The notes: generated by a model not told the origin, from the letters alone. Counted from the first letter of the stretch, positions 22,116-54,501 are shown. The stretch is 64,000 nt of DNA from Microtetraspora niveoalba (GCF_001570405.1 NZ_BBYM01000016.1:54059-118058); one strand, 5' to 3'. A program made the numbers and translations.

Positions 22116-25100
22116 TCACGTTCTCCCGTCGGGAAAGAGTGCATGTCCTGGCAGCGCTTCCACCGCGGTTTTCGCGCGGTTGCGCCACCAGGTTAGCTCG
22201 TTGTCTTCCGCCTGTCGGCGCAAGTCGGTGAGGTGCCGGACAGCGGTGTGGTGTTCGCCGCCCGCGGAGGCGAGCAGGGCCAGGTACCAGTCGACCGGGC
22301 CCATGCACATCACGGCGGACACCGCCGAGATGCGTCCGCTGTATGGCAGCAGGGTGGTGTACCCAGCCCGGCAGTCGTCCACGTGACCGATCGCCGCTTT
22401 GGCGGCGGCCTGCAGGCAAGTCGCCGACAGCCATGACCAGTCGTGTGGTGGCATCGGCCAGCCGTTCCGGACCAGGGCGCGGGCCTCGTCGCCACGGCCT
22501 TGGGCGTACAGGTGCAGGACGCGGGCGTCGTGGTCGAGGGTGGGGTGGATCCCGGTGATGGTGTCAATCAGCGGGCCTGCGTCTGCCATGGTTTCCTGTT
22601 GCATGCGCATGACGATGCGGCCCATGGCCACCAGCGCCCGCGCATGATACACGTCGAGCCGCTCGGCTTGGCGTTCGGCCTCGCCGCGTAGTGTCTCGGC
22701 CTCCCTGAACCGGCCGTCGAGGGCGAGGCGGTTGGACCGCCATAGGATGTGCTGGAAGCGGGGCCAGGGCAGCGGAAGCCGGTCCAGCAGTGCCTCGCAC
22801 CGGGCAGCGGCGCGGTCGGCGCCGACGATGTCGAACAACTCCAGCCGGTTGTGGGTGTGCAGCATCTGTGCCAGCAGTTCGAACCCCGGAGCCTGCACGC
22901 GCGCCGCCAGCTTCTGCATCTCGTCGGCAATCCGTACCAGATCACCGATATGCAGCGGCTGGGGCAGCGCCAGGTGCCGGGCGTTGAGCAGGTGCATCAG
23001 CAGGTATGGGTCGCCCAGGCGGCGGGCCATCGCCACGGCCTCGGCGGACAGGGTGTCGCAGCGGGGGTTGTTGCTTCCGTCGTACAGTTCCTGGGCCAGG
23101 CAGCCCATTAGCCGGGCCTGCTCAGGGCTGTCCCCCTCCTTCAGGAGGCTCAGTGCAGTCTCGAAGCGGTGCACCAACCGCAGTTCCATGGCCTCATAGG
23201 GATCATGCAGCGACCACAGTGACGGAGCGTCCAGTGCCGTCAGTGCCCGGGCCGCCATCTGCGGGCGAGACGGAAACCGATCTGCCGCCCGGATGGCCTC
23301 GGCCCGGGCCTGCCGGGCCCCGATCTGGTCGCCTGCCTCCAGCAGGGCACGTACTCGTCGCAGCAACAGCTCCACGTGGGTGTCCGGGTCGCCAGCGGAG
23401 GCATTATGAGCCTCGATGGCTCGGTCCCACCATGTCGCCGCCTCCTCGTAGGCCAGACGAAGACTGGCCTGTTCGGCTGCCACGCAGGCCCAGCGCGCCG
23501 CCTCACCATAGGCCGCCGGACCGGCCTCGACCGCGTGATGGGCGATCACCGCCACATCGGTGCCGGGACGTGCGGACAAAGCTGCCATGACATCGCGGTG
23601 GATAACGGCCCTGGTCAGCGGGGCCAGGTCGCTGAGGAGCGTCTCCCGGACCAGATCGTGAGCGAAGGCCATCCGGGTCCCGCGGGAAACGAGCAACCCG
23701 CCCTGGGCCCCCTGATCCAGCAGGGCGTACACGTTGCCACCGCTCGACCGGCTCCCGGCGACCTCGACCACCACGGCAGGGTCGAAGTCCCGGCCGATAA
23801 CGGCGGCAATGCCCAAGACTTCTCCCATCTGCGGACCATGGGCGGCCAGACGCTGGCGGACCAGCTCGGCCACCGCCTCCGGAACCATCTCCAGAGGCCG
23901 ACCCTCGACCATCAGCCGGACGCTTTCCCGGACGAAGAAAGGATTGCCCCCGGTGCGGTTGGTCAGGCGGGCGACGACCTGATCGTCCACCTCCACCCCC
24001 ATCTCCTCCGCGATCTCCCGCACCGCCTCGAAATTCAGCCCGCCCAGACGGATCCGGACCCGGTCGTAGCCGGCCAGGCGAACAAGCAGCTCATCCACTG
24101 GTAGGCCGCCGGCATCACCCGTCCACGGGCGCGGGGGCATCGTGTCGCGGAAGGCAGTCACCAGCGACAACGGCAACCCATCGGCCATCCCGCCGAGCAG
24201 CACCGTCACATCCTGCAGTAGCTCCAGCGAGGCTGGGTCTGCCCACTGCACATCGTCAAACACGATGACCACAGGCTGGACTCGTGCGGCGGTCACGAGC
24301 CACTGCGCGATCACCTGATTGCGTCGCAGCAACGCCGCGGCGGTCGAGCCGGTGGGCTTCTCATCGTCCAGCAGCCCCGCCAGCGCGGAGCGATCCGGCG
24401 GCGGGTAATGTTCCTGCAACGTTCCGAGCACCTGCAACCAGGGCCACAAGGCAGGCGTGCCCTGTGTGTCGTGACACCGCCCCCACACCACCAGGTGCCC
24501 CGCGGCGGCGCACCAAGCGGCGAAGGTCTCCAGCAGGCACGTCTTGCCTATGCCCGGCTCGCCGCTCACCGCCGCCAGCGTCACCCCCCGACGCGTGGCC
24601 GTACTCGTCAGCTCCAACAGCTCGGCCAGCGGCCCCTCCCGCCCCCGCGCCCTCCTCGGTGGAAGGGAAGCCTGCGAGGTCGTGAGCGCCACCGACGAGA
24701 CGACCGGCCCCAGCGACTCGACGTGGCGCAGTATGCCGTCCTCCAGTTCCCGCAACTCCGGCCCGGGATCAAGCCCCAGTTGGTCGGCCAACAGTTCTTT
24801 GACGCGTCGCAGGACGGCCAGGGCGTCGGCCTGACGGCCGGTGCGGTAAAACGCCAGCGCGAGCAGACACCACAACCGTTCCCTCAGCGGATTGGCCGCC
24901 GTCTCGGCCTCCAGGTCGGCGATCGCCGCCTGCGGCCGGCCCAGATCGAGCAACGCCTGCGCCCGCCGCTCTATCGACACCAGTCGCAACTCCCGTAATC
25001 GGCCGACCTCAGCCAACGCCCACGGCTCATCACAGAACTCTCCATACGGCACGCCCCGCCACAACGCCAGCGCCTCCTCCACCGGCGCCAGCGCCTCCAT

Positions 25101-25451
25101 CGGGGACAGGAACTCCGCGCGATTCACCAAGTCCGCGAACCGGACCGCGTCCACATTCTCCGCCAGCAGCGCATAACCCGACGGCCGCCCCACCAGGACC
25201 CGCGGCTCGCCACGCGCCGGCCGATCAGGCTCGATCGCCCGCCGCAGATGCGACACATACGACTGCACGGTCGCGACAGCACTCGCCGGCGGCGCTTCCC
25301 ATACAGCTTCAATCAACGTCCTGCTGGGAACCAGCACTCCGTGCGCCACCAGGAGCCTTGCCAGCACGGCCCGCTGACGCGGCCCGCCCAGGTCGACGCG
25401 TGCCCCGTCATCGTCGTAGACCTCCAGAGAACCAAGAACTCGAAACTTCAC
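22116..25451 (-). CDS. AfsR/SARP-type regulator with BTAD, ATPase and helical-repeat domains
   Basis: 1111 residues from the GTG at 25451 (GGAGG, 5 bases upstream). Residues 1-95 are an OmpR-like winged helix (MKFRVLGSLEVYDDDGARVD; GGPRQRAVLARLLVAHGVLV), 100-245 the bacterial transcriptional activation domain (FADLVNRAEF... RRAQALLDLGRPQAAIADLE). An AAA/NB-ARC-like ATPase follows with Walker A GEPGIGKT near 298 and Walker B VVIVFDDVQWAD near 400. The last 450 residues are TPR-like helices. Large SARPs of this kind activate secondary-metabolite or morphogenesis genes. No biosynthetic cluster is adjacent. TCAAG heptamers 550 bases upstream are a possible target. Confidence 0.93.
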   Translation of the reverse strand: MKFRVLGSLEVYDDDGARVDLGGPRQRAVLARLLVAHGVLVPSRTLIEAVWEAPPASAVATVQSYVSHLRRAIEPDRPARGEPRVLVGRPSGYALLAENVDAVRFADLVNRAEFLSPMEALAPVEEALALWRGVPYGEFCDEPWALAEVGRLRELRLVSIERRAQALLDLGRPQAAIADLEAETAANPLRERLWCLLALAFYRTGRQADALAVLRRVKELLADQLGLDPGPELRELEDGILRHVESLGPVVSSVALTTSQASLPPRRARGREGPLAELLELTSTATRRGVTLAAVSGEPGIGKTCLLETFAAWCAAAGHLVVWGRCHDTQGTPALWPWLQVLGTLQEHYPPPDRSALAGLLDDEKPTGSTAAALLRRNQVIAQWLVTAARVQPVVIVFDDVQWADPASLELLQDVTVLLGGMADGLPLSLVTAFRDTMPPRPWTGDAGGLPVDELLVRLAGYDRVRIRLGGLNFEAVREIAEEMGVEVDDQVVARLTNRTGGNPFFVRESVRLMVEGRPLEMVPEAVAELVRQRLAAHGPQMGEVLGIAAVIGRDFDPAVVVEVAGSRSSGGNVYALLDQGAQGGLLVSRGTRMAFAHDLVRETLLSDLAPLTRAVIHRDVMAALSARPGTDVAVIAHHAVEAGPAAYGEAARWACVAAEQASLRLAYEEAATWWDRAIEAHNASAGDPDTHVELLLRRVRALLEAGDQIGARQARAEAIRAADRFPSRPQMAARALTALDAPSLWSLHDPYEAMELRLVHRFETALSLLKEGDSPEQARLMGCLAQELYDGSNNPRCDTLSAEAVAMARRLGDPYLLMHLLNARHLALPQPLHIGDLVRIADEMQKLAARVQAPGFELLAQMLHTHNRLELFDIVGADRAAARCEALLDRLPLPWPRFQHILWRSNRLALDGRFREAETLRGEAERQAERLDVYHARALVAMGRIVMRMQQETMADAGPLIDTITGIHPTLDHDARVLHLYAQGRGDEARALVRNGWPMPPHDWSWLSATCLQAAAKAAIGHVDDCRAGYTTLLPYSGRISAVSAVMCMGPVDWYLALLASAGGEHHTAVRHLTDLRRQAEDNELTWWRNRAKTAVEALPGHALFPDGRT

Positions 25452-36852: not shown

Positions 36853-36874
36853 CAGGACGATGAGGGGGCCGGTG

Positions 36875-38351: not shown

Positions 38352-38377
38352 GTGGGGTTTGCCCGGGCGGGCAGGCG

Positions 38378-41300: not shown

Positions 41301-44300
41301 GCAACCGCGGTCCCCCGATCCCACATCACAAACCTGCCCGGACTCGTATAACCGAACGTCTTACCGTTGTCGTTCAGGGTCTCGGCCATGCCATGCACCG
41401 TGCTATTGCCCGGCTGCAGGTCGGTGACCGACCCGCCATTGCGGTAGACGACAGCGTGCTCGGCGTTGCTGCCGTTCACCGACGCCACGGCCCAGCCGGA
41501 CACGTCACCGGCCTCGTTGATGCCTATAGCACCGGACTCGCACTTGACCGCGCCATCGGTGCAGGCCAGACCACCCAGCTCGGTGAACGTCCCGTCCTGC
41601 CAACGCACCGCGCGCTTCTTACCGTCCTCGCCGGTCACCGTGGCGGCGACCTGACCGCGGTCGTTCAACGACCACACCTCGGTCCTCGAGGCGTCCCCGC
41701 CAGGCAGGGTGCCGATCTCGGTCACCTTGTAGGTCCCGAACCGGGCCTTCACCGTGTGCGGGCCGTCCATCGTCAGCGTCAGCGGCCCCGCGCCCCGCTC
41801 CTCACCGTCGACCACCCATCCGATCGGGACACGCCCGGCGTCCGGGGTCGCGGTCACCTTCACCTTCGTCCCGGCCCGGTAGCTGTCCTGCGCCGGCGAC
41901 GCCGACACCGAACCCCCTGACCCCGCCGAGAGCGTCAGCACGAACTCCCGCGTGTCCGGCTGCTTCACCTCGATCACATCGAACGCCGTACGCAGCCCCT
42001 TGGCGGTGTCGACCTTCACCGTGACCGAATACACACCGTCAGGCAACGACTCAGAGGTGACACCGTACACACCGTCATCGGCGGCGCCGTCACCACTGTT
42101 GCCGTCATCCTTCAACGGCAGTTCGACGCGCGCGTTGCCCTCACCAATCACGATCGCCTGCACCGGCACCCCGGTCACCGGCTGACCCCCATCGGTGACG
42201 GTACCCGTCACCGTGATGCGGCCATCCTCCGACGGCTGCTCCACCTTCGCGGTCACCTTCACCGGATTACCGGCCACCCAGGCACCCAGATCGGCCGTAA
42301 CCAGCTCCGTGGCCGTGTTGGTGATCTCCAGCTTCCACGCACCCGCCTGCGGCTTGGCCACGCTCAGCCCCTGAAACGGCTGCTTGGCCTCATCGCCGCC
42401 CGCCGCATACTGCGCGGCCGGCTTCCCCGATGGATCGCGCAGCACCAGCCCCACGGTCGACGGCAACGCCCCGGTCACACCGAACGCCGCGCCCTGCGGC
42501 ACATCCAGCGGTACGCTCACCGTCTTACCCGGCTCGACCGCAGCAGACGGCGTGGCGAACAACGAACCACCGTCCACGCCATCGGCGTCGGCACCAGTGG
42601 CTGTGGCCTTCGCGGTCGCCAGAGCGTCGGCACCCGAGTTGCCGGCGACTTCCTTGGTCAGGCCGGGCAGACTCGGGCCAGCGGCCTTGCCCGGCACCGA
42701 CGCGAGCCGAGGCTTGACATAGGCCTGGAAATCCGGCACCGAATCGGTCATCGACATGTGAACCGTTCCGGTCTTGGGGGTGTCGGGATAGAACTGCGCG
42801 CTCCAGAACGGAACAATCAGATCACCATCCCAGAACGAGGTGACGCCTTCCGCTATGTCCTTGTTCCACGGAATGGGTCCCATGCTGAAACAGGGCACGA
42901 TCCTGCCCACACCCGCCAGATTAGCGGGCGACACACCCTTGAGGTTCATATAGTGCTCGTTGAACACACCCCGCACGAACGCCGTGGTGTTCTGCTCCGA
43001 CGCCGGGGAGTACGGAACGGGAAGACCCCTGATCGCGGCCTGTTCCACCACCATCTCCGCACAGGGAGTCCCCCGATTCGGAGTCCCCAGCTGCAACATC
43101 CGGTTCACCACCGGCTTGTCATCCGGCGAGCTCGGCATGTCATCCTGAATGTACTGCCGAGTGATAAGACCACCCATCGAGTGGGCGATGACATCGACGT
43201 GCCACGCCCCCGTCCGCGTGCGCACGTTCTCGATATACTTCGCCATCTCGTTGGCGTTCTGCGTAAGCGTGTTGGTCAGCTTTAACGGATCCGTCAAGGT
43301 ACCGGTGTTAAGGGTGCCGCCACCGGAACCGAACTGACCGTCACCCACAGCGAAAGACGCCATATTGGGGTGGAAGTCTCTGATAATCGCATGGGTGTAT
43401 CCCCACGAAGACACCGCGTCGGTCTTATATCCGTGCACCAGAACCACGGGCTTCGGCTTGGTGAGGATGCTCGCCGACTCGGCGAAATCCTTCCTGGCCT
43501 CGCCGACGAAGAGCCGCGCCTTGACATACCGCGCCAGATTCGCCTCGCCCCTCTCCCAGGCGACCCCCGCGGTGTCCCAGTTCACCCGTACGTTGACGGT
43601 CTCGTTCGCAGCGAGCTCGACCTCGACCGGATCCACCTTGGGCAACGGCGTGTAGTCCACGGCCTCGCCCGGTTCCGGCGCCTGATACAGCTTGAGCCGC
43701 GCGGTGACGGGCACGTCGTCGGGATTGGTCACCGATACCATAATGCGCGCCGGGTTGCCATCGGTCACCGCCTCCGCCTCGGCCCACTCCCCGGACGGGT
43801 AACTCTTCGTCTCAAGCTTGACTGAATCGATGACGGGCCCGCTTGCCAGCTCGAGCAGGAAGCCGTGGTCCACGTCGGCTCCCTCAGGCCGGCCGACGCC
43901 GACGATCTGGTCGACATCGTTGATGCCGGTGGCCTTCTTCAGGGTCCAGCCCGAACCCGGCGGCAGCAGGCTGTTCAGATCGATTCCCACGCCATTTCGA
44001 TACAGAGCGGCATGCTCGTAGTACATGCCGGAGTCGGTGTACATCACCCCGACGCCGATTCCGGACTCGTTGATCGCCTCCACCCTGCCGCCGTGAGGGG
44101 TGTCCTGTACGTGGAATCTTCCCTCCACATCCCAGATGATGGGGATATCACCGGCGTCCTCGTACGGATGCCCGTCCACCTGGCCTGCGACCACGCCCTT
44201 TTCATTGATGTCGTTGGCCCGGGTACTTACGGCGCCGGGGACCGCCAGGCGGTCTCTGTCGATGTCCAGGGGCTGACCGGGCCTGGTCCGGAAGGCTTGC

Positions 44301-44956
44301 ATAGAGATGCGCGGACCAGGGTCCATGTCAGCCCAGCCGACAACCGAACCGGAATCGGCCAGCGCCGTGGGCTCCAGAACCTGCCCTTTGAACGATCCCA
44401 GCTTCAGTTCGGAACCGTCGGGATCGCGTATATAGCCACCGCCCGCGATTTGACCGCGATCGTTGATGGCTAATGCCCATTTACCCAAGGGAGTTATCTT
44501 GTCTTTTTTGACGAGCCAGGCTTTTTCCGTGTCCGAGCCGTTGGTGACAACCGCCACGCCGTTGTCGTTGATCTCCCAGGGCACGCTCGCGCCGATTTTG
44601 GGGTCGAGGCCGAGGAGCGCGTGAACGTCCGTGACCGACCCCTCGAAGAACAGCCTGGCCTGAGGACGTTCGCCCTGCTCGAGCCCGGCGACCCCGACCG
44701 CGAAGGTGACCTCGCCGTAGTTGTTGATGTCAGTGACTCTGCCACCCCTGCCCCCGAGGGAACCAAGATCGGTGATCTTCTTGACCTTTGGCCCGGCGGC
44801 CGCCACTTTCGTGGCCGGAGGCGATGTCGGGCCGGACGCGGCCAGCGCGGGTAAGGGCATGGCCAGAGAGGCCACGGTGGCGGCCAAGCCGACCACCCCG
44901 GCGGTCAGAGTGGTCGCGATCCGCCGAGCGGACACGCGACAGGTTGACGGGTTCAA
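38378..44956 (-). CDS. Giant secreted multidomain protein: HAF repeats, lipase-like hydrolase, PKD/Ig repeats
   Basis: 2192 residues from a TTG at 44956, chosen because GAGGAG is 7 bases upstream and a signal peptide follows (ATTLTAGVVGLAATVASLAM, PLPALAA). Order: HAF-type repeats (LGSLGGRGGRVTDINNYGEV) to about 330; an alpha/beta hydrolase at 490-760 (VVLVHGYKTDAVSSWG, nucleophile VIAHSMGGLITRQY); a pre-peptidase-like beta domain; an InlB-like repeat near 1010-1070; a second HAF block to 1390; DUF11 (TWTATVTNAGPDTATDVRLD) near 1435-1545; a choice-of-anchor-D-like domain; four PKD/Ig modules at 1665-2055; a C-terminal beta domain. Likely an extracellular esterase/lipase with adhesion modules. 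Confidence 0.88.
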   Translation of the reverse strand: MNPSTCRVSARRIATTLTAGVVGLAATVASLAMPLPALAASGPTSPPATKVAAAGPKVKKITDLGSLGGRGGRVTDINNYGEVTFAVGVAGLEQGERPQARLFFEGSVTDVHALLGLDPKIGASVPWEINDNGVAVVTNGSDTEKAWLVKKDKITPLGKWALAINDRGQIAGGGYIRDPDGSELKLGSFKGQVLEPTALADSGSVVGWADMDPGPRISMQAFRTRPGQPLDIDRDRLAVPGAVSTRANDINEKGVVAGQVDGHPYEDAGDIPIIWDVEGRFHVQDTPHGGRVEAINESGIGVGVMYTDSGMYYEHAALYRNGVGIDLNSLLPPGSGWTLKKATGINDVDQIVGVGRPEGADVDHGFLLELASGPVIDSVKLETKSYPSGEWAEAEAVTDGNPARIMVSVTNPDDVPVTARLKLYQAPEPGEAVDYTPLPKVDPVEVELAANETVNVRVNWDTAGVAWERGEANLARYVKARLFVGEARKDFAESASILTKPKPVVLVHGYKTDAVSSWGYTHAIIRDFHPNMASFAVGDGQFGSGGGTLNTGTLTDPLKLTNTLTQNANEMAKYIENVRTRTGAWHVDVIAHSMGGLITRQYIQDDMPSSPDDKPVVNRMLQLGTPNRGTPCAEMVVEQAAIRGLPVPYSPASEQNTTAFVRGVFNEHYMNLKGVSPANLAGVGRIVPCFSMGPIPWNKDIAEGVTSFWDGDLIVPFWSAQFYPDTPKTGTVHMSMTDSVPDFQAYVKPRLASVPGKAAGPSLPGLTKEVAGNSGADALATAKATATGADADGVDGGSLFATPSAAVEPGKTVSVPLDVPQGAAFGVTGALPSTVGLVLRDPSGKPAAQYAAGGDEAKQPFQGLSVAKPQAGAWKLEITNTATELVTADLGAWVAGNPVKVTAKVEQPSEDGRITVTGTVTDGGQPVTGVPVQAIVIGEGNARVELPLKDDGNSGDGAADDGVYGVTSESLPDGVYSVTVKVDTAKGLRTAFDVIEVKQPDTREFVLTLSAGSGGSVSASPAQDSYRAGTKVKVTATPDAGRVPIGWVVDGEERGAGPLTLTMDGPHTVKARFGTYKVTEIGTLPGGDASRTEVWSLNDRGQVAATVTGEDGKKRAVRWQDGTFTELGGLACTDGAVKCESGAIGINEAGDVSGWAVASVNGSNAEHAVVYRNGGSVTDLQPGNSTVHGMAETLNDNGKTFGYTSPGRFVMWDRGTAVAAPPDYVTGRSYDGEDFQNWGGARLNAWGVVSGSYAIGRNANGTARDTGPALYTDGVLTKLPGTVEGCAETAGRASDVNSAGLVVGTLRCGAYEGKTVKRAYAWRGGKPTDLGIGEAAAVNDNELIVGFESGLRLNPSHRSPVMWVDGTKYPLKDLLSRPWCPDDRTKTTQPCMAMLYVRDVNSSGQILIQGSVRDRSPDGDGFTESARSFLLSPTTAQADLQVTTEVSASEPGPGSKVTWTATVTNAGPDTATDVRLDVLVPQAAGVSACETFRGICAPIKGGFRNTVKVLEPGWSARVEVTATIPADTADGTELKVQAHGYSMAVADPKPGDNTATASATVRPLFNTPGVNWPVPVKVGSVSHSYAVKLTNRLNDPIPLKAIAVSGPFAQTNACPVELAVGQTCTVEVSFAPTQEGPASGALTFTTADGAEPAYTLPLTGTGAVANAVPVVEVPSAPVRGVVGKPFTLTVEFTDADTGDTHTAQVVLGAGPEQATVAQRPGGGTVTSKAKTFTAPTRGRATVMVSDGKDVGGANVEYVIEEAGPNTAPVLSAGPDAEVSTGETLQRTVTFTDPDSTSWTATVDYGDGSGPQPVTPAAAKQIALEHQWGGAGSYTVIVKVKDDGGLEGTASFTVTVKDAQTPNQAPQVTVRSTTETVEAGASWVGLGSFTDPDSSSWTYTVDYGDGLGPQPLTPTADQLKLEHVFASAGDYTVVLTVTDDKGGASSAQVVVQVTNADPQVALKAPPAMVEVGEPVVLSASFTDTGRGDSHTATWTIGERQIAGAVAEHGGKGTVGLPHVFTEPGLYEVAVTVADDHGGRAMADTVGGGKVRVLVYDRTASVTGAGTIATPAKACMLNSECAKEEGKASFTVTARYPRKGKAPTGELTYTAPGLTLHGTSFTVLSAADGTAILRGTGKAKEAGKVTYEITAVDTGAGPADQFHLVVWDDKGTRIYDNQPTGSPSPVSGVLRISG

Positions 44957-45343
44957 ATGTGTTTCTCCTCGACTACGAACGCGCCTTCCGGCGCGACAGT
45001 GAATCTCCGCGCAGGATTTGGTGTGCCGGAGCAACCGGTCCGCTCCCGCGGTTCGCCACCCATAAAGGCGGGATAAAGATCCGGTACGGATTCTTACCGA
45101 ACCCCCCTGCAAATCGCATGAGCCGCCTTGCAGGACACTGGTAGTCGGACATCGTGTGAGCTGATCGCGGCGTCTCCATGCCGGGCGCACTACGACGTCG
45201 CGCGCAAAGCTGCTGCACCGTCGACTTCGTCGCGGCATCGGACGGGCCGCATAACCAGGTGAGAGCCCGGGCCCTCCCCCGGAGGCATGGACATCTTGAC
45301 TGCCGGACGACAGACATCCGGCGGCAAGAAGTTCCGCGCGGCG

Positions 45344-45470
45344 ATGAAGCCGTACTCGCCTGAGTTCAAGGCGGACGCCATCGCGTTGTAGCCGGCTGAC
45401 CCGACACGGACGTACGTCGGCGCCCCGGGACCTGGGCATCAACAGCGAGACGCCGCGTCTTCGGGTGCGC
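45344..45470 (+). pseudogene. IS3-family OrfA N-terminal fragment
   Basis: MKPYSPEFKADAIAL then a stop, followed in shifted frames by ADPTRTY and a RDLGINSET-like stretch, matching the start of an IS3 OrfA protein. Too short and broken to act. Confidence 0.55.
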
Positions 45471-45631
45471 CAGGCCCGCTCGGCTGAGACCCCCCGGTGA
45501 GTCACCGCCGGGGGTCGTCCGATAGGGGGTTCGGTACCGCTGGCCGCGCCGCCGATCCGGCGCACCCCAGCCGGGGCGGCGATCTTGTCTCGGTTCGCTC
45601 GCGTACGGCTCAGAAGAACGAGCGTTCCTTT

Positions 45632-45815
45632 GAAACGCACCACGATGTGGAGCTGATGGACACCTCGGGTCGGCGGCTAGAGCCAAGGCCCGGCTGCCGG
45701 AGCGCGTGGCGGGGATGACGCGGCTGGACACGCTGATCGCCGAGCAGCTCGGGGACCAGGAGACGAGGGCGAGGTGATCGTCGCGTACGCGGCCGGTTTC
45801 ATGCCGACCACCAGC
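45632..45815 (+). pseudogene. IS110-family transposase N-terminal fragment
   Basis: Broken frames read ETHHDVELMDTSGRRL, KARLPERVAGMTRLDTLIAE and QLGDQETE, the N-terminal DEDD-domain region of IS110 transposases. At least two frameshifts are visible and the rest of the gene is missing. Confidence 0.6.
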
Positions 45816-45906: not shown

Positions 45907-46125
45907 ATGTCCAATGACCGACCGACGGCCATGCACACGCGCGGGCTGTCCCTGAACCACAGCGAGCAGGTGCTCAAGGGCCTGTCCCTGAACCACAACG
46001 AGCAGGTGCTCAAGGGCCTGTCCCTGAACCACAACGAGCAGGTGCTCAAGGGCCTGTCCCTGAACCACAACGAGCAGGTGCTCAAGGGCCTGTCCCTGAA
46101 CCACAACGAGTCCCTCATCGGCTGA
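45907..46125 (+). CDS. Repeat peptide: five GLSLNHNEQVLK-type units, candidate precursor or signal peptide
   Basis: 72 residues. The ATG at 45907 has GAGGAG 6 bases upstream, so translation is well supported. A 12-residue leader, MSNDRPTAMHTR, precedes GLSLNHSEQVLK, three exact GLSLNHNEQVLK units, and a last GLSLNHNE ending SLIG. There is no signal peptide, membrane segment or cysteine. Each of the first four units has one Lys, one Glu, two Asn or Asn/Ser, and one His. An MFS gene follows after 109 bases, then an overlapping TPR gene. The form (short leader, tandem identical cores, exporter, acyl- and methyltransferase nearby) fits a multi-core RiPP or a processed signal. No family is recognised; function is inference. 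Confidence 0.75.
   Translation: MSNDRPTAMHTRGLSLNHSEQVLKGLSLNHNEQVLKGLSLNHNEQVLKGLSLNHNEQVLKGLSLNHNESLIG
45943..46110 (+). repeat. 36-bp in-frame tandem repeat, 4.7 units
   Basis: Units at 45943, 45979, 46015, 46051 and 46087. Units 2 to 4 are identical at DNA level; unit 1 differs at two bases (one silent, one Asn to Ser); unit 5 is 24 bases long. Identity at silent sites implies recent expansion or gene conversion. Confidence 0.95.
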
Positions 46126-46234
46126 ACGAGTCACCGTGATCCGGCGAGGAGCTGATCCGAAGGGCGGCTGACCGCACCGAGCGGTCTCCGCCGGACGGGG
46201 AGCTCGCCCTGGACCGGGAAGACAGGTGGAACGA

Positions 46235-47521
46235 ATGTCACTGCGCCGGTTAGTGCCGGACCTGCCTCGAGAGGCGTGGTGGATACTCGCCGGCGACGCG
46301 GTATCCGCTTTCGGCAGCGGCCTGACGCTGCCCTTCTTTCTGGTCTATCTGCACAACGTCCGGGGGATAGAACTCGGCCTTGCCGGGCCGATACTCTCGG
46401 CGGTCGCATTCGCGGGACTCGTCGGAAATCCACTGGGCGGCCTGCTCGCGGACCGTTTCGGTGCGCGGCAGGCCGCCGTCGCGGGCCTCGTGGTCGCGGC
46501 GGTCGGGACCATCGGGATGGCCGGTGTCCGGTCCGCCTGGCAGGGGCTGGTGGCGGCCATCGTGTACGGGCTCGGCGTCGCGGTCACGACGCCGTCGTTC
46601 CAGGCGCTCGTCGGGGTCTGTGTCCCCAGGGAGCGGCGGTCGCAGATGTTCGCGGTCCAGTACGCCATGATGAACGCCGGCTTCAGCGCCGGGGGCCTGC
46701 TGGCCGCGGTGCTGGTGACCTCGTCGCCCCGTAGCTTCGTCACGCTGTACCTTCTGGACGCGGGCACGTTTCTCGCCTTCGCCGTGTTGCTCGCCCGATC
46801 GTCCAGGGGCCGCGTCACAGGAGTCCGGTCCCCGGCTACCGCCCCCCGGGGCGGGTATCGCGAGCTCCTCTCCGACCGGCTGCTCATGCGGATCTGTGTG
46901 CTGGTGGTCGCAGTGTTCTCCTGCGGCTACGCGCAGTACTACAGTGCCTACCCGGTCTACGCGATGGAGGAGGGCCGGCTGGACGCCGCCGCGTTGCGGC
47001 TCACCTTCCTGGCCAACACCGTCACGGTCATCATCGTCCAGCTCCTCGTGCTGCGCCTGATCCGAGGCCGGCGCCGCACCCGGGGATTCGCCCTGTCCGC
47101 CGCACTCATGGCCGTCGCGTGGGTAACGGTGCTGTGGGCGGCGACCGCGGGAGGAGGAGCGGCCGGCATGGCTGGGTTCGCGGTCGCGATGGCCCTGTTC
47201 GCCGTCGGAGAGACGCTCATGGCTCCCACCGTGCCCGCCATCGTCAACGACCTGGCGCCCGACTCGGCGCGCGGCCGATACAACGGGGTCTACAGCCTGG
47301 CCACCACGCTCGGCTTCATCGCCGGACCCGCGGTCGCCGGCATCGCGATGTCCGCGAGCCTCGGAGCGGCTCTCTTCACCGCCATGGCCCTGGCGCTCGG
47401 GCTCGTCGCCGTACAGGCGCTGCGGCTCGAGCGGCACCTTCCACCCGCCGTGAACCTCGTCGCCTCGGCGGACGACCGCGCCGTCGGCGTGCGGCAGACG
47501 GAAGGCGCCGGCAATGGGTGA
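46235..47521 (+). CDS. MFS transporter, candidate peptide or metabolite exporter
   Basis: 428 residues from the ATG at 46235, with AGGTGG 5 bases upstream; a GTG at 46226 is the alternative. Twelve hydrophobic segments are visible in two sets of six, with motif A GGLLADRFGARQAA between TM2 and TM3 and the equivalent loop DSARGRYNGVYSLATTLGFI in the second half. It belongs to the DHA1-like drug/metabolite exporters. Its position between the repeat peptide and the TPR gene, overlapping the latter by 8 bases, suggests it exports the mature product or confers self-immunity. Confidence 0.9.
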   Translation: MSLRRLVPDLPREAWWILAGDAVSAFGSGLTLPFFLVYLHNVRGIELGLAGPILSAVAFAGLVGNPLGGLLADRFGARQAAVAGLVVAAVGTIGMAGVRSAWQGLVAAIVYGLGVAVTTPSFQALVGVCVPRERRSQMFAVQYAMMNAGFSAGGLLAAVLVTSSPRSFVTLYLLDAGTFLAFAVLLARSSRGRVTGVRSPATAPRGGYRELLSDRLLMRICVLVVAVFSCGYAQYYSAYPVYAMEEGRLDAAALRLTFLANTVTVIIVQLLVLRLIRGRRRTRGFALSAALMAVAWVTVLWAATAGGGAAGMAGFAVAMALFAVGETLMAPTVPAIVNDLAPDSARGRYNGVYSLATTLGFIAGPAVAGIAMSASLGAALFTAMALALGLVAVQALRLERHLPPAVNLVASADDRAVGVRQTEGAGNG

Positions 47522-48368
47522 GGCCACGCCCGGAACCGGCAGCCGGACCGACGCGCTGCTCACGCTCTCCCAGACGCTGCGCGAGCAGGGCCGGTACCGG
47601 GAGTGCGACGGCACGCTGCGGCGCGCGCTGGACATCGCCGAGCGGGAGACCGGCCCCGATTCCCTCCTCGTCGCCCGCGTCTGCAACGACCTCGGCGTGC
47701 TGCATAAGTACACCGGCCGGTTCGGCGATTCGGAGCGGTTCTACCGGCGCGCTCAGGTGATCATCGAAGCGGACGTGGAGCGGGGCCATCCGTTTCTGGC
47801 CGACATCTACCACAACCTCGGCGGACTCAACCACGCACGCGGCACGTACGCGCAAGGCGAGCCCTTCGCCCGCCGTTCGGTGGAGATACGGCAACGAATC
47901 CATGGTCCCGACCATCCCAAGGTGGCCGCGGACAAGGCGGCGCTCGCCGCGATCCTGCAAGCGCTCGGCGACAGCGAGGCGGCGGAGCGGCTGCTGCTGG
48001 ACGCTCTCGCGGTGTTCGAGAAGGTCCTCGGCCCCGAGGACTACGAGGTCGCCTCGTGTCTGAGCAACCTCGCCGCCATACGGTACGCGAAAGGCGACCT
48101 TGACGGCGCGGAGGCGGGATACGCCAGGGTGGTCGACCTCAGGGAGAAGATCCTCGGCGAGACCAACCCCGACCTGGCCGTGCCTCTGCACAACCTGGGG
48201 GTCACCGCCTCGAGACGGGGCCGGCCGGAGGCGGCTGCGGCGGCCTTCCACAGGGCGCTCGCCGTGCTCGGCGACGAGGTCGACGCCGAGCACCCCCTAC
48301 GGCTCTCCTGCCTGCGCGAGCTGGGCGCCGTTCGCCGCGCGGCGAAGAGCGAGCACGACGGCGGGTGA
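47514..48368 (+). CDS. Kinesin light chain-type TPR protein
   Basis: 284 residues, starting inside the last codons of the MFS gene (8-base overlap), so translationally coupled. It consists of about six 42-residue TPR units of the TPR_10/12 type: VARVCNDLGVLHKYTGRFGD, FLADIYHNLGGLNHARGTYA, VASCLSNLAAIRYAKGDLDG, LAVPLHNLGVTASRRGRPEA. There is no HTH, kinase or signal peptide. The concave TPR surface usually binds peptides, and the gene is in a unit with a repeat peptide, so a peptide-binding chaperone or receptor role is attractive but unproven. Confidence 0.88.
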   Translation: MGEATPGTGSRTDALLTLSQTLREQGRYRECDGTLRRALDIAERETGPDSLLVARVCNDLGVLHKYTGRFGDSERFYRRAQVIIEADVERGHPFLADIYHNLGGLNHARGTYAQGEPFARRSVEIRQRIHGPDHPKVAADKAALAAILQALGDSEAAERLLLDALAVFEKVLGPEDYEVASCLSNLAAIRYAKGDLDGAEAGYARVVDLREKILGETNPDLAVPLHNLGVTASRRGRPEAAAAAFHRALAVLGDEVDAEHPLRLSCLRELGAVRRAAKSEHDGG

Positions 48369-48617
48369 CCCGGCGCGGGGACGCGAGGCGAACGACGACT
48401 GCCACGCTGCTGGCGACTATGACGGGCTCAGCGTGCTCGGGCTGCGGTACCCAGACCTGGAGGTCGCTCATGCCGGGCCCGTACGGCTGGCCGGTGGCGA
48501 GCTCGCCCAGGACGCGCGCCCTGGCCGCTCGTGAGACTCTCGACCACCAGGCGCGAGGCGAGGTGTGATTCATGTACCGCTGTGACCTCGGCCCAGGCGT
48601 CGGCGTATGACACAGAG

Positions 48618-48665
48618 GGGACGCCGGTCGACGGGCGCCGATCGGGCACGGTCGACCGGCGTCCC
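48618..48665. terminator. Strong bidirectional terminator
   Basis: Perfect 15-bp arms, GGGACGCCGGTCGAC (48618-48632) and GTCGACCGGCGTCCC (48651-48665), with an 18-base loop. It lies 17 bases from the acyltransferase stop and 250 bases after the TPR stop, separating the two convergent halves of the peptide locus. The gap 48369-48617 shows nothing else. Confidence 0.85.
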
Positions 48666-48682
48666 GCGGTCCGGACGTGTGG

Positions 48683-49399
48683 CTACGCGACCGGGGAGCT
48701 CTCCCGGCCGAGACGGATCCGGGTGAGCTCGTCGAGCACGGCAGGGGCGACCTGCGCGGCGAGCCGCGGATGGTTGCCGAGCAGCTGCTCCGGCCGGCAG
48801 GCCAGCAGCTTGACCATGTCGCCCACCTCCGGCATCGGATGGCTGTCGGGCGAGGCCTCCCAGAAACCGAAGTGGCGAAGGATCGCGTCCTGTCCCGCGA
48901 CCGTGCCGGCCAGCACCCAGATCAGGCTCCGCCCCAGCCGCTGCGCCAGGACGTTGCTGGCCACGACGAGGAGCTGGCCGATGTTCTGACGGCGGTGGTG
49001 CGGGTGGACGACCCAGCGGGCGCCCTCCAGGACATCCGTCCGGCGAAGCCGCTCCTTGCTCAGCAGGCGCGTCGCGCCCGGCTCGTCGAGCGCCATCACC
49101 TTGCTCGGAGCGAGCAGCTCGGCCGGGGCGAGCCGGGCCGAAGCGATCAGCTCTCCCGTGGAACGCAGCCGTGCCAGGACATGGTAGGCGTGCCGGTCGT
49201 GCTCGTCGGCGTCGTCGAACTCCCCGTCCTCCATCCGGAAGTGCGGAAAGCGGCCGTTCTCGTAGATCACCTCACCGCGGAATGATCTGATCTCGCGCTG
49301 CCAGGGCTCGCTTCCGAACGATGAGCTGTATGAGGACGGTGGCTGGATCTCGAGATGTACCGCCGCCGGAAGGCGTACGTCCGTTGTGTCGTTACGCAT
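48683..49399 (-). CDS. GNAT-fold acyltransferase resembling LuxI/FeeM autoinducer or N-acyl amino acid synthases
   Basis: 238 residues from the ATG at 49399 (GGAG 8 bases upstream). The N-terminal half reads WQREIRSFRGEVIYENGRFP, then DEHDRHAYHVLARL (Asp65, Asp68) and GELIASARLAP (Arg89), the spacing of conserved Asp and Arg residues in LuxI and FeeM proteins. The acyl-donor binding turn is VVHPHHRRQNIGQLLVVASN (130-149). Such enzymes transfer long acyl chains from acyl-ACP to an amine; the classic LuxI triad is not fully conserved. It follows a methyltransferase by 126 bases on the same strand, and faces the repeat-peptide unit across a terminator. Acylation of the repeat peptide's lysines is a testable idea only. 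Confidence 0.8.
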   Translation of the reverse strand: MRNDTTDVRLPAAVHLEIQPPSSYSSSFGSEPWQREIRSFRGEVIYENGRFPHFRMEDGEFDDADEHDRHAYHVLARLRSTGELIASARLAPAELLAPSKVMALDEPGATRLLSKERLRRTDVLEGARWVVHPHHRRQNIGQLLVVASNVLAQRLGRSLIWVLAGTVAGQDAILRHFGFWEASPDSHPMPEVGDMVKLLACRPEQLLGNHPRLAAQVAPAVLDELTRIRLGRESSPVA

Positions 49400-49525
49400 G
49401 GTGTTTCTCCGGGTGGCCGTGAAGGCGAATGGTGTGACGGTCCGTCTGCGTGTGCCGTACGCCTGCGGACCGATGACATGCGGGGCTGAGCGGTCGGGCT
49501 CAGCCGGGGTGAACCGCCTGACTGG

Positions 49526-50344
49526 TTAGGCCTGACGACGTTTTGTCGCGATGGCCACGTATACGGGTATGGCCATCAGGAACTGTCCGCGCGTGTCGGC
49601 CAGTTCAAGGGAGTCGAACCAGGCGGCCCGATCGGCCTCCGCGACCAGGTCGGCCTGCCGCCGGTCGAGGACGGGGATGACGGACTCGGCATCCGCCAGG
49701 CTGGTGGACACCGCGTGAACCGAGCGCACCGCCGGATTGATGAGGCCCGCTCGTACGAGCCGGCGGCGCAGCGTGCGGCCGATGGTCGGCTGGCGCACCT
49801 TGAGCTGGAAGGCGTCCAGGACCCGCGCTGTCATGGCCTCGTCGACTCCGTCGACGACCAGCGCGCCCCAGTCGACGTCGAGGAGGCAGGCGCGCCCTCC
49901 GGGAGCCACCGCGCGTGTCAGTGAGCCGACCGCCGCCTCGGGATCGGGGACATGCTGCAGGACCCGCTCGCACCACACCACGTCGAAGTCGCCGCTGTAG
50001 CCCAAGGAGGCCACGTCCGCTACCTCGTACTTCACTACCGCGTCCTCCGGCGCCGCCGTGTGCCTGTCCTGGGCCGCGGCCACCATGGCGGGATTGAGGT
50101 CGATGGCGGTGACCGATCCGTCCGGCCCTGCCATGGAGGCGAAGGCCCGCGACATCTCACCGAGCCCGCATCCCACGTCCAGGACGCTGCTGCCGGCCGC
50201 CACGGACAGCACCTCCACGGCCATGGCGCGGACCGCCCGTATCACCGTGTGCTTGGCAACCTCCGCGAGATACGTCTCCGCCGCCGTCTGTTGCGCCGAC
50301 GTCGAACTTCCCTGAAACACCTTGCCGCCCACGGCACTACTCAC
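49526..50344 (-). CDS. Class I SAM-dependent methyltransferase
   Basis: 272 residues from the GTG at 50344. Motif I is SVLDVGCGLGEMSR (about 53-66), the ribose-binding acid is Asp82 in AIDLNPAM, motif II-like FDVVWCERVLQHVPDPEAAV follows, and the C-terminus is helical. This is the small-molecule methyltransferase fold (UbiE/Methyltransf_11). Its start lacks a good ribosome binding site but overlaps by 8 bases a 15-codon leader ORF that has a perfect one, so it is probably translated by coupling. It likely forms an operon with the LuxI-like acyltransferase. The substrate is unknown. Confidence 0.9.
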   Translation of the reverse strand: MSSAVGGKVFQGSSTSAQQTAAETYLAEVAKHTVIRAVRAMAVEVLSVAAGSSVLDVGCGLGEMSRAFASMAGPDGSVTAIDLNPAMVAAAQDRHTAAPEDAVVKYEVADVASLGYSGDFDVVWCERVLQHVPDPEAAVGSLTRAVAPGGRACLLDVDWGALVVDGVDEAMTARVLDAFQLKVRQPTIGRTLRRRLVRAGLINPAVRSVHAVSTSLADAESVIPVLDRRQADLVAEADRAAWFDSLELADTRGQFLMAIPVYVAIATKRRQA

Positions 50345-50384
50345 CGCCCATCCCGTGGTCTTCCGAATTCATTCGGAAATTCAT
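50337..50384 (-). CDS. 15-residue leader ORF coupled to the methyltransferase
   Basis: AGGAGG (50389-50394) stands 4 bases before an ATG at 50384, encoding MNFRMNSEDHGMGGE and ending in TAG at 50337-50339, 8 bases inside the methyltransferase gene. No Trp, Leu or other attenuator-type codon run is present. It may serve only to load ribosomes, or it may be a regulatory peptide. Confidence 0.55.
   Translation of the reverse strand: MNFRMNSEDHGMGGE
50361..50378. promoter_or_regulatory. 18-bp perfect palindrome in the leader of the methyltransferase unit
   Basis: TTCCGAAT-TC-ATTCGGAA, 8+2+8, inside the leader ORF and 17 bases before the methyltransferase start. It could be an operator for a dimeric regulator or an RNA hairpin. 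No second copy was found in the window. Confidence 0.5.
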
Positions 50385-51056
50385 GTGTCCTCCTGACCGA
50401 ACTGTCCTGGGTCCACAGCCGCCCTGAATTTTCCGCCGTCGACCTGTCGGGTGAATCCGTTGGACATGCGGAATTGGGCGACTCACCCCTAGCGTGTCCG
50501 ATTCCCCATGAAAGATACTTGTGGCAGTATGCGGTGACCTTTGAATGGCTCGCCTGCCGGCTCGGCCGGTGGGCACAACCTGGCTCAAGTGGTTCTCAAG
50601 GCCGCTCGGACCGTGGCCCGGGCGTAGGGGACGGAAGGGTGAGCCGGACGCCCATTCAGCGGCCGCAAGTCTCCACAATCGCCTTCGAGTTCGCCACAAG
50701 AGGCGCCCGAATACTGATATTCGACCATGTCGATCTACATACTGAGGGCTGCGTAGCCTCGAAGGGGCCGCACAAGTCGATGGCGAACGACGCCGTCACG
50801 CCGATTCCCCGTACGGGCCTCCCGGGGCCCGTCATGCGCGCCAACAGATTCGGCCACGCAGTCTGCACAATTCCGCCTTCCAGGCATCCGTGAGCGTTTT
50901 CCAACCTGAAGTGGCAGGTCACAAGCCCCTTGCAGATCAGTCGACCAAGAGCAACACCACTCCAGGTAATGTAGGCCCAAGGCAGGGTAGTTAGCGTTTT
51001 GGCGGCTTTGGCAAGGGAACCGGCGAGTGCATAGCGGCGGTGTGAACCGCGCCGAG
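50385..51056. other. 670-base gap between the methyltransferase leader and the IS3 element
   Basis: Lower GC than its surroundings. It must carry the promoter of the methyltransferase unit. Open frames here show no recognisable domain or ribosome binding site. Nothing else is supported. Confidence 0.5.
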
Positions 51057-51072: not shown

Positions 51073-52012
51073 TTAGCTGGCTGGGGTGAGGATAGCCGGG
51101 CCGGTTTGTGTTTGGTAGTGGGTCTCGAATTCGGCTGGTGGGAGGTCGTTGCAGGCGCTGTGGAGGCGCCGGTTGTTGTACCAGTCGACCCATTCCATAG
51201 TGGCGATCTCCAGCTCGTCCAGGCCGTTCCACGGGCCGCGGCGGTGGATCAGCTCGGTCTTGCACAACCCGATGGTGCTTTCGGCCAGGGCGTTGTCGTA
51301 GCTGTCCCCGCGTGAGCCGACCGAGCAGACCGCCCCGGCACCCGCGAGGCGCTCGGTGTAGCGAATCGACAGATAGTGGCAGCCGCGGTCGGAGTGATGC
51401 ACCAGACCATCCAGTCGCCGGCCGTCACCGCGTCGCCGGATGGCCATCTCCAGCGCGTCCAGTGCCAGGTCGGTGCGCAGGTGATCGGTCAGCCGCCACC
51501 CGACGATCATCCGCAAGAACGCGTCGATCACCAGCGCCGCGTAGACGAACCCCGACGCGGTGGGGATGTAGGTCAGGTCGGCGACCCACAGCCGGTTCGG
51601 GCGGGGGCGGTGAAGTCGCGTTTGACCAGGTCGGCGGGCCGGCCGGTGAGCGCTTCGGCGATCGTGGTCCGCGTCTTGTGGTCCCCGCGGGCCGCACCGG
51701 CCAGCCCCAGGCGCTTCATCAGCCGGGCCACCGTGCACCGCGCCACCCGGATGCCGCGCCGGTTGAGTTCCTTCCACATCTTGCGCACGCCATACACCTC
51801 GAAGTTGTCGTTCCACACCGTGGTGATCTCGGCCATGAGCTGCTGGTCCCGCACCTGGCGGGCAGACGGTGGGCGGGACTTGGCCGCGTAGTACGTCGAT
51901 GTGGCCACCTGCAACACCTGGCAGATCGGCTCGACGCCGAAAGCGTCGCGGTGGACGTCGATGAAGGCGACTACCTGGGCGGCCGTGGGTCGAGTTCCGC
52001 CGCGAAAAAAGC
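51073..52012 (-). pseudogene. IS3 OrfB transposase, broken by a one-base deletion
   Basis: The rve integrase core is clear: AFIDVHRDAFGVEPICQVLQ, then VADLTYIPTASGFVYAALVI, HHSDRGCHYLSIRYTERLAG and ALAESTIGLCKTELIHRRGP give the D, D and E of the catalytic triad. Near 51601-51606 a run of C has lost one base: the first frame ends FTAPARTGCGSPT while the next frame continues RPNRLWVADLTYIP. OrfB would normally be made by -1 slippage on six U residues (plus-strand A run 52005-52010) at the end of OrfA. As it stands the transposase is inactive. Confidence 0.85.
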
Positions 52013-52291
52013 GGCCGCGGCCTTCAGAATCTCGTTGGCGCGGCGCAGCTCGCGCACCTCGCGCTCCAGTTCGGCGATCCGCTGGGCGTCGGTGGTCGAG
52101 GTGCCCGGCCGCTGTCCCTCGTCGATCTCGGCCTGGCGCACCCACCCCCGCAGTGCCTCACGGTGAACGCCGAGCTGGTCGGCCACCCGGGCGATCGCGC
52201 CGGGAGCGCCGCCGGTCTGCCGACGGACCTCAAACACCATGCGCACCGCGCGCTCGCGAAGCTCTTGGGGGTACTTCCCCGGGGCTGGCAT
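51971..52291 (-). CDS. IS3 OrfA, HTH protein
   Basis: 106 residues from the ATG at 52291. KYPQELRERAVRMVFEVRRQ starts the HTH_Tnp_1 domain (RVADQLGVHREALRGWVRQA), followed by a leucine-zipper-like coiled coil RIAELEREVRELRRANEILK. The frame ends AAAFFAAELDPRPPR over the slippery U run used for the OrfAB fusion. It appears intact although OrfB is not. Confidence 0.88.
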   Translation of the reverse strand: MPAPGKYPQELRERAVRMVFEVRRQTGGAPGAIARVADQLGVHREALRGWVRQAEIDEGQRPGTSTTDAQRIAELEREVRELRRANEILKAAAAFFAAELDPRPPR

Positions 52292-52360
52292 CGTTTCGTC
52301 GTTCTCCCTTCCGCCAGCAGATGATGCTGGCTTCAGGGCCTCCACGAAAGTCGGAGTGGT

Positions 52361-53095
52361 TCAGACCGCCCGCAGCGCGGCGACCAGGCCGGCGTGCGCG
52401 TCGGAGATGACCAGTTGGACACCGCCCAGGCCGCGGGCTTTCAGTGAGCGCAGGAACTCGGTCCAGAACGCGCCGTCTTCGCTGTCGCCGACAGAGAAGC
52501 CGAGGATCTCCCGGTGGCCGTCAGCCGAGACGCCGGTGGCGATGACGACGGCTTGGGAGACGACCCGGTGGTTCACGCGGGCTTTGCAGTAGGTGGCGTC
52601 CAGGAACACGTATGGGAAGGTCGTGTGCGATAGCGGCCGGTCGCGGAAGGCGGCGACCTCATTGTCGAGGTCGGCGCAGATGCGGGAGACCTCGCTTTTA
52701 GAGATCCCGCTGTCGGCGCCGAGGGCTTTGACCAGGTCATCGAGGCTTCTGGTGGACACTCCTTGGAGGTAGGCCTCCATCACCACCGCGAATAGTGCTT
52801 GGTCGATGCGGCGGCGGCGTTCCAGCAGGGAGGGGAAGAACGACCCGGACCGCAGTTTGGGGATCTTCAGTTCCAGGTCTCCGGCTGCGGAGGTGAGCAG
52901 CCGGTCGCGATAGCCGTTGCGGCGCGTGGTGCGCTGTTCGGTGCGCTCATGGGGTGCGGCGCCGATCACCGCGGTCGCCTCCGCTTCGATCAGCGCCTGG
53001 AGCATGGCTTGGAGCGCTTGCCGGATGACGTCGTCGGCGTCGGCGGCTTTCAAAGACTCCAGCAACTCGAGCAGGGCAGACTGGTCCAGAGCCAT
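52361..53095 (-). pseudogene. IS256-family transposase truncated at its C-terminal half
   Basis: 244 of the usual 400 or so residues: MALDQSALLELLESLKAADA, TTRRNGYRDRLLTSAAGDLE, LQGVSTRSLDDLVKALGADS, FLDATYCKARVNHRVVSQAV (first catalytic Asp) and VISDAHAGLVAALRAV (second Asp). The frame stops 11 bases from the IS3 end, so the C-terminal part with the catalytic Glu has been lost, presumably deleted during or after IS3 insertion. The other half is not on the far side of the IS3 element. Confidence 0.9.
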
Positions 53096-53152
53096 CGTGT
53101 GATGTCCTCCGCGAGAACCTTGGCGGGAACTCGCTGACCGTCACACGATGGC
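53091..53152 (-). promoter_or_regulatory. Inverted repeat covering the IS256-type transposase start codon
   Basis: GCCATCGTGTGA (53091-53102) is perfectly complementary to TCACACGATGGC (53141-53152). In a transcript entering from outside, the stem would hide the ATG at 53095 and nearby bases, a known strategy by which IS elements block translation from read-through RNA. Confidence 0.55.
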
Positions 53153-53209
53153 TCGCCCCATGTCCGGGACTTGCTTTGTCAGCTTGGAGTTACACCACCC
53201 GAGGGGACG

Positions 53210-53860
53210 TCAACTTTGCGGCAGCAAATCGGGGTTGGCCCGGCCGTATATCTGCCGCTTGAGCATCTTGATGCGGTTGACATGACCTTCGACCTTCCCG
53301 GAGCTGTGGGCCAGGGTCAGGCCGGCTTTGGCGGCGTCGAAGTCGCGGCGCAGCCCGGTCACGAAGCAGTGCAGTTCCGGCAGGTCGTCGGCCTCAACGG
53401 CGTTCATCCACTGCTCCAGGCCGTCACCACCGAGCCGGAGCATCATGTGGGCCAAGGCGCGGACGTGATCGCGGAGCGCGGCCAGGGCCGGGCATGTCGT
53501 GGTCAAGGCCTGCAGGTGCTGTAGTTCGTCAGTGTCGAGGCTGTCGGGGTTACGGAGGAACCAGCCGGTCGCCTGGCGGACGGTGGGCGGTGCTGGCGGT
53601 AGGGCGATGGTGGTCTGCGTCCTCCAGGGGCGGAGGTACTCGCGCACTGCGTTGCCTTTGCCGCGGTAGCCCATGGCTTTGATCTCCTGGTAGAGCTGCT
53701 CGGCGTTGGTGCAGCCCTGCTCCCAGCGTTGTTGCAGGTAGCAGGCGAACTCCTCGATCGCCCTGGGGCGTTTTCCGGTGCCGGTGTTCGCGAGCAGCTC
53801 CTCCGGGCTGGTCACGTGGGCGAAGCGTCGGACGGTGTTGCGGGCCAGGTCGAGCTCGCG
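53210..53860 (-). pseudogene. ISL3-family transposase, C-terminal half
   Basis: LARNTVRRFAHVTSPEELLA, RPRAIEEFACYLQQRWEQGC, ATGWFLRNPDSLDTDELQHL and LAHSSGKVEGHVNRIKMLKR identify the C-terminal half of an actinomycete ISL3 transposase. The N-terminal half is missing beyond about 53860. The end (ANPDLLPQS) is altered by a small change next to the IS256 boundary. Confidence 0.88.
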
Positions 53861-53862
53861 GC

Positions 53863-54019
53863 CGCCGTCGCTGCCGGAGCCCGGCACGGCGCCCACGTCA
53901 CCCGCGCTGTCGCCCCCGCCACCGACCATCCCCTCCTGGCCGACCTGCGCCTGCTCGGCCTCACCGCAGTGGACGCCATCTGCTACTACCAGGCGCCCAC
54001 CAGCAGCGCACGCCAGTAG
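53863..54019 (+). pseudogene. C-terminal fragment of an unknown gene
   Basis: The plus frame AAVAAGARHGAHVTRAVAPA, then LADLRLLGLTAVDAICYYQA ends at a stop at 54019, 107 bases before the radical SAM start. It has coding character and lost its 5' part to the ISL3 element. It was probably in one operon with the radical SAM gene. Family unknown. Confidence 0.4.
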
Positions 54020-54126
54020 CCCACCGCCCGACTGCACCCGTACGCCTTCACCTGGCGGCCCCGACCGGCCCGCAGGTCCCTTCGCACCCCATGACGCAAG
54101 TCACCAGCTCGACGAAAGGATCCCCC

Positions 54127-54449: not shown

Positions 54450-54501
54450 CGCGCTGTTCCCCATTTGTTCCCCATCGGCCCCTCGGGGAGATCATTTCGG
54501 C

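Follow-up and report, generated by a model that had tools for sequence, protein, structure and literature searches.

Control of natural-product biosynthesis in actinomycetes is known mostly through small diffusible molecules. In the Bacillota, the RRNPP systems (Rap-Phr, NprR-NprX and Rgg-SHP) place small peptide genes beside tetratricopeptide-repeat (TPR) receptors, and SHP/Rgg loci control neighbouring clusters for ribosomally synthesised and post-translationally modified peptides (RiPPs) (PMC12445099). Peptide export by a major facilitator superfamily (MFS) protein also has a precedent in MccC, which exports the peptide antibiotic microcin C (PMC9239234). Here we describe a 64,000-nucleotide stretch of the Microtetraspora niveoalba genome (GCF_001570405.1 NZ_BBYM01000016.1:54059-118058, hereafter the window), in which a tandem-repeat peptide gene is followed by genes for an MFS protein and a TPR protein (together, the trio; Table 1). 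The original prediction had joined these three to a GCN5-related N-acetyltransferase (GNAT)-fold protein and a methyltransferase on the other strand as one locus. Comparison across genomes indicates that the peptide, the MFS protein and the TPR protein constitute a single functional unit.

The peptide gene encodes MSNDRPTAMHTR followed by GLSLNHSEQVLK, three copies of GLSLNHNEQVLK and GLSLNHNESLIG. Its DNA is a 36-nt tandem array (4.6 copies, 99% match, Tandem Repeats Finder) and a GGAG ribosome site lies 7 nt 5′ of the ATG, in agreement with the predicted open reading frame (ORF) of 72 residues with 12-residue units and a good start. Because other genomes have homologous repeat peptides beside homologous MFS and TPR genes, the conservation argues that this is a genuine gene rather than a chance ORF. 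The units share an 11-residue core across loci, G[LI]Sx-N-H-[N,S,V,T]-[E,Q]-x-[V,L]-[L,I,V] (the NHxE motif), in which asparagine and histidine are invariant in 32 of 32 distinct units and position +5 is always valine or leucine. Outside this core the peptides vary: they carry between one and five units (12 peptides counted), or seven in L144; the linkers between units differ (VLK, VLEP, VLEDG, RRRG, EEGVAPQR); and the leader, hydrophilic and 12 residues long in the window, is short and not conserved, the whole peptide of L044 being just 24 residues. No lysine, cysteine or serine/threonine is conserved in the core of the 32 distinct units, and therefore neither lysine acylation nor the usual serine, threonine or cysteine chemistry accounts for its conservation. 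Matches of the peptide to Staphylococcus Sdr plasmid sequences were dismissed as chance.

Relatives of the peptide were collected by a protein search, followed by inspection of their neighbourhoods and by later searches. Peptide, MFS and TPR genes were found together at 14 loci in 13 genomes or records, comprising eight Streptosporangiaceae genomes, four Streptomycetaceae and a single genome from a third family that has two copies. These loci are the window; Acrocarpospora catenulata (L039); G180 (L040); Microbispora siamensis (L041/L046); Microtetraspora glauca (L042/L047); G119 (L043); G206 (L044); G316 (L064); G568, with two copies (L101, L102); G441 (L103); G585 (L141); and plasmids of Streptomyces sp. 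NBC_01334 (L143) and Streptomyces 3211 (L144). Since the region in NBC_01334 is nearly identical to that of G585 (98% across the LuxR-type regulator), about 13 of the loci are independent. The distribution is sparse: 8 of the 347 genomes searched in the order contain the trio, and a sample of 395 from the class yielded it in G155, G441, G568 and the genome of the window; G585 was missed in that sample and found later with a profile of the unit, so the sensitivity for divergent peptides is limited.

The order peptide-MFS-TPR is kept at 12 of the 14 loci, with peptide-TPR-MFS in L040 and MFS-peptide-TPR in L043. None of the peptides found lacks the MFS and TPR genes beside it, and class-wide MFS matches at 35-40% have flanks that lack an NHxE peptide. 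Distances among the MFS proteins correlate with those among the TPR proteins (r=0.88, permutation p=5e-5), as co-inheritance would give, and between the window and M. siamensis copies of both genes non-synonymous divergence (dN) is well below synonymous divergence (dS). The proposal of an undescribed-looking conserved peptide family travelling with these two partners is therefore upheld. Four partners had been named, and the other two fare differently: the GNAT is lacking at 12 of the 14 loci and the methyltransferase at most of them. Beyond MFS and TPR, no gene is common to the 14 loci, and no dedicated modifying enzyme of the kind that accompanies a RiPP precursor was found among them. The trio appears to be undescribed, its motif and the combinations of TPR, MFS and peptide being absent from the literature searched, the coverage of which stopped short of subscription papers.

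Pfam matches confirm the predicted MFS gene and, overlapping it by 8 nt, the TPR gene. E. coli YdeE, whose model is the closest to the MFS protein in NCBIfam, has been reported to export dipeptides. When the TPR family profile was compared with the PDB, kinesin light chains (KLC) KLC1 and KLC2 came first, including complexes with cargo peptides (E to 7e-44), followed by bacterial KLC. The AlphaFold2 model (predicted local distance difference test score 93.7) has 13 helices, that is six TPRs and a cap, and its structural matches (VIA-align) include degron-bound APPBP2 (Z 30.8), KLC1 in complex with cargo peptides and Rap with pheromones (both Z 23), and NprR (Z 20-22). By fold and gene adjacency, the trio thus has a TPR domain of peptide-binding type beside a small peptide gene, as in RRNPP systems, while Pfam and the model show TPR repeats only, with neither a helix-turn-helix (HTH) nor a Rap-type effector domain. 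Most of the residues invariant among the 14 TPR proteins, whose overall identity falls to 32%, lie on helix A3 (A96, H100, N101, L102, G104, L105, H107, R109), and R126 and D140 are likewise invariant; this pattern would fit a groove with a conserved ligand site. For co-variation of the E/Q position of the peptide with the TPR protein, a single column differed in the two NHxQ loci, too little to be informative. Assignment to the FxSxx-COOH system was rejected, as the TPR protein scores 96 bits against an NCBIfam FxsT cut-off of 300 and the peptide has no FxSxx terminus.

Table 1. Features of the window that bear on the trio and its surroundings
Feature	Position	Strand	Basis
Tandem-repeat peptide, 72 aa, five 12-aa units	45907..46125	+	Homologous peptides in 13 other trio loci
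MFS exporter (putative), DHA1-like	46226..47521	+	PF07690 E 2e-37; in NCBIfam closest to the YdeE efflux model, though far under its cut-off
TPR protein of kinesin-light-chain type, putative peptide receptor; six repeats and a capping helix	47514..48368	+	PF13424 E 1.5e-47
Decayed scrap of 354-aa protein gene (last gene of C39/ATP-grasp RiPP cluster)	48412..48622	+	blastn, tblastn
Inverted repeat, terminator-like, between convergent modules	48618..48665	.	
GNAT, AHL-synthase/FeeM-like fold, second gene of separate methyltransferase-GNAT operon	48683..49399	-	PF13444 above its cut-off
Class I SAM methyltransferase, first gene of methyltransferase-GNAT operon	49526..50344	-	Relatives near LanKC clusters in Microtetraspora glauca, G206
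SARP/AfsR-like activator, AAA_16	22116..25451	-	54-63% identity to the BTAD+AAA_16 SARPs found by other trios
AHL, acyl-homoserine lactone; SAM, S-adenosylmethionine; SARP, Streptomyces antibiotic regulatory protein.

Activators with an AAA domain, of SARP or LuxR type, are found near most of the trios. The SARP of the window lies 20 kb from it, after a rearrangement (block 26308-45643 is rearranged with respect to M. siamensis), and in four other genomes linked relatives are separated from the trio by 0.1-13 kb. SARP-type activators are linked to the trio in the window, L040, L042, M. siamensis (L046, at the contig edge) and G206 (12-13 kb), and more distantly in L101 and L102; LuxR-type AAA activators lie near L043, L101, L141 and L143. 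As the genomes concerned carry about 9-33 AAA_16 genes each, or roughly one every 350 kb, activators by the trios exceed chance, though related loci are not independent. Separately, the rearranged block begins with a DUF3103 protein gene (26308-27561) that has homologues in neighbourhoods L130 and L133. The 7.8-Mb genome of G180 holds about nine full-length copies of one SARP clade, some by RiPP clusters, and a truncated copy beside its trio. A set of haem-oxygenase-like, GNAT and P450 genes stands beside a SARP in two genomes (L121 8259-11046 and L140).

Co-occurrence, co-divergence, a shared motif and a TPR protein with the fold and sequence type of KLC domains that bind cargo peptides are observed for the trio, and on these grounds the peptide may well be a signal or regulator, with the MFS protein as its exporter and the TPR protein as its receptor. 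The repeat peptide would be active whole or be cleaved intracellularly to short NHxE units; the MFS protein would export it; and the TPR superhelix would bind an NHxE unit in its concave groove and pass on density or export state to the adjacent activator of AAA type, a SARP or LuxR-type protein that in some genomes is encoded inside a RiPP cluster. Such a module would give actinomycetes a form of peptide signalling that resembles RRNPP or SHP/Rgg circuits in operation, though it is assembled from other components. The original idea of a peptide signal read by a TPR protein is hence kept as the best reading, on the strength of trio conservation and the KLC-type TPR, and shorn of its GNAT, methyltransferase and lysine acylation. 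More tentatively, the trio could represent an undescribed class of actinomycete peptide signalling, in which MFS-exported tandem NHxE peptides and a KLC-type TPR receptor control activators (SARP- or LuxR-type) of gene clusters for natural products, often RiPPs.

Several observations weigh against signalling. The regulators form no single orthologous family, none lies near L064 or L103, and many copies of the SARP clade in question have no trio. A stand-alone TPR protein in G180 (L150 8097-9038) retains the HNLxGLxHARG signature without peptide or MFS; part of the conserved patch is therefore not exclusive to the trio, which weakens the idea of a trio-exclusive TPR signature. No protease is common to the trio loci, and reading of the peptide sequences by eye revealed neither a Sec signal nor an export signal of the Sec/PptAB type carried by RRNPP propeptides. 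A peptide without a signal sequence would suit an arrangement in which it stays inside the cell as a multivalent ligand and titrates the TPR protein, which would control the MFS protein or the SARP, the pump exporting other cargo, e.g. the product of the neighbouring cluster. A repeated short motif and a KLC-type TPR fit multivalent motif binding, and the MFS profile is of drug-efflux type, but the peptide of L044 has one unit only, so that multivalency is not required, and the trio is kept in L039 and L040, where no product cluster was recognised in the vicinity. Intracellular titration is on balance quite unlikely.

The genomic setting bears on whether the peptide is a signal or a product. 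RiPP clusters contain or adjoin the trio in M. siamensis, M. glauca and G206, with a LanKC region in the latter two, and other copies of the SARP clade adjoin RiPP clusters as well (L126, with ATP-grasp, a relative of the 354-aa protein and C39; L130 and L135, with LanKC). The peptide might thus be a multi-core natural-product precursor, whether RiPP-like or unmodified and bacteriocin- or siderophore-like, with its cut units exported by the MFS protein and presented by the TPR protein as carrier or chaperone. Repeated core units after a leader, identical in tandem and changing in copy number between species, are typical of such precursors, and MccC is a precedent for this route of peptide export (PMC9239234). 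However, the 14 loci share no modifying enzyme, the core conserves no cysteine, serine/threonine or lysine, and the three clusters have canonical cysteine precursors of their own, namely a pair with GG leaders in M. siamensis and MELD[IV]TALDMLP...C peptides in M. glauca and G206. A precursor role is accordingly an unlikely, if credible, alternative. Because these clusters have their own precursors, the NHxE peptide is probably an accessory to the cluster rather than what it makes, and a signal would be the simplest such role.

The LanKC just upstream of the trio in M. glauca is unlikely to use the NHNE peptide as substrate, since its cluster has its own MELDVTALDMLP...C precursor, and the idea is further weakened by related LanKC clusters that have such precursors without an NHNE peptide. 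Cysteine-rich peptides with MELDI(N/T)ALDMLP leaders were also noted at L047 20604, L121 18889, L152 6586, L130 13606 and L127 136, most of them next to genes for LanKC and/or ABC transporters and to SARPs of a single clade.

The remaining two genes of the predicted locus were both recognised correctly. The predicted structure of the GNAT matches the AHL synthases RpaI, TofI and BjaI best (Z 17-18), with FeeM at Z 15.9, and its family retains W33, R41, D63, D68, R89, E125 and R128, so that the fold and the W/D/D/R/ExxR residues of AHL synthases are both present; PF00765 is not among its Pfam matches, PF13444 being matched instead. The LuxI/FeeM-like description thus holds at the level of fold and residues, and a class I methyltransferase does lie beside it on the other strand. 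A methyltransferase gene directly precedes the GNAT gene in G107, G131 and G084, which have no trio and whose two proteins are 43-51% identical to those of the window, and a GNAT orthologue adjoins just 2 of the 14 trios. Gene neighbourhoods therefore point to GNAT and methyltransferase as an operon separate from the trio. This operon (48683-50344), with its AHL-synthase/FeeM-like acyltransferase in an actinomycete, recurs in three other Streptosporangiaceae genomes and may make an acylated signal.

On the original five-gene model, the GNAT would acylate the lysine of each unit and the methyltransferase would methylate it, giving a lipo-RiPP or lipopeptide signal. Besides the fold of the GNAT, this would draw on the adjacency of all five genes in the window and on the same, interrupted, module order in M. 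siamensis. Lysine is, however, missing from half of the homologous peptides and lies outside the conserved core, and the methyltransferase-GNAT pair exists without the peptide; with the scarcity of the GNAT at trio loci, these facts make acylation of the units highly improbable, and a selidamide-type lipo-RiPP, in which a GNAT acylates a conserved lysine or ornithine, was rejected on the same grounds. A defence system was likewise set aside, since the sole matches in PADLOC were a generic one for the TPR protein and a weak one for the methyltransferase.

The adjacency itself is explained by a deletion scar. M. siamensis is collinear with the window at 82-85%, apart from an insert between TPR and GNAT (L046 4340-9154) that encodes an ABC transporter of the C39 type, a pair of GG-leader peptides, an ATP-grasp enzyme resembling MvdD and a protein of 354 aa. 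Window positions 48412-48594 correspond by blastn to L046 8714-8898, with 51-63% identity by tblastn. The window thus retains a scrap of a RiPP cluster that is intact in M. siamensis, which implies that a deletion joined the trio to the methyltransferase-GNAT operon; the alignment suggests a loss of about 4.4 kb, plus a further gap of about 0.24 kb within the gene for the 354-aa protein. The five genes accordingly do not stand as one locus. The predicted hairpin between the convergent gene ends is present, as is one at the equivalent place in M. siamensis (L046 9165-9205). A cluster similar to that of M. siamensis occurs in L126 of G180. Just past the methyltransferase, IS3-type and other transposase ORFs (51073-54037, identified by reading the sequence) fit a scarred locus, and they are followed by a short ORF (54091-54513) like the start of a radical SAM enzyme (ALVQITERCNLHCAHC), which has no Pfam match and is possibly truncated.

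If the signalling model is true, a compact peptide/exporter/receptor unit tied to SARP-type activators of RiPP clusters would offer a handle to wake silent clusters. The trio provides a defined synthetic peptide (GLSLNHNEQVLK or the consensus GLSTNHNEVVL) and a soluble putative receptor for direct testing. The scar illustrates that deletion can disguise two unrelated modules as one biosynthetic locus.

Compared with described systems, the GNAT resembles LuxI-type AHL synthases and FeeM in fold (Z 18 for RpaI/TofI, 15.9 for FeeM) and in the D, D, R, ExxR pattern, but it belongs to an actinomycete and is paired with a methyltransferase. With multi-core RiPPs and the GNAT-acylated selidamides the trio shares tandem units and, in the window, a nearby AHL-synthase/FeeM-like GNAT, whereas it has no conserved modifying enzyme or acceptor residue and the GNAT lies outside the conserved unit. 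The minimal microcin C cluster (mccA-mccB-mccC) likewise has a tiny peptide gene and then an MFS exporter; the trio has a long repeat peptide and, in place of an MccB-type ThiF enzyme, a TPR protein. That protein shares the 42-residue TPR type of kinesin light chain and bacterial KLC (BtubC), its best sequence matches in the PDB, while its operon partners are a repeat peptide and an MFS protein rather than tubulin or kinesin. Finally, the RRNPP systems are alike in placing a small peptide gene beside a TPR receptor, here a putative one, in the match of the TPR model to Rap and NprR (Z 20-23) and, for some SHP/Rgg loci, in controlling adjacent RiPP clusters (PMC12445099). The trio differs from them in a TPR protein that lacks an HTH and is KLC-type by sequence, in a precursor with tandem motifs and no signal peptide, in its dedicated MFS protein and in its actinomycete hosts.

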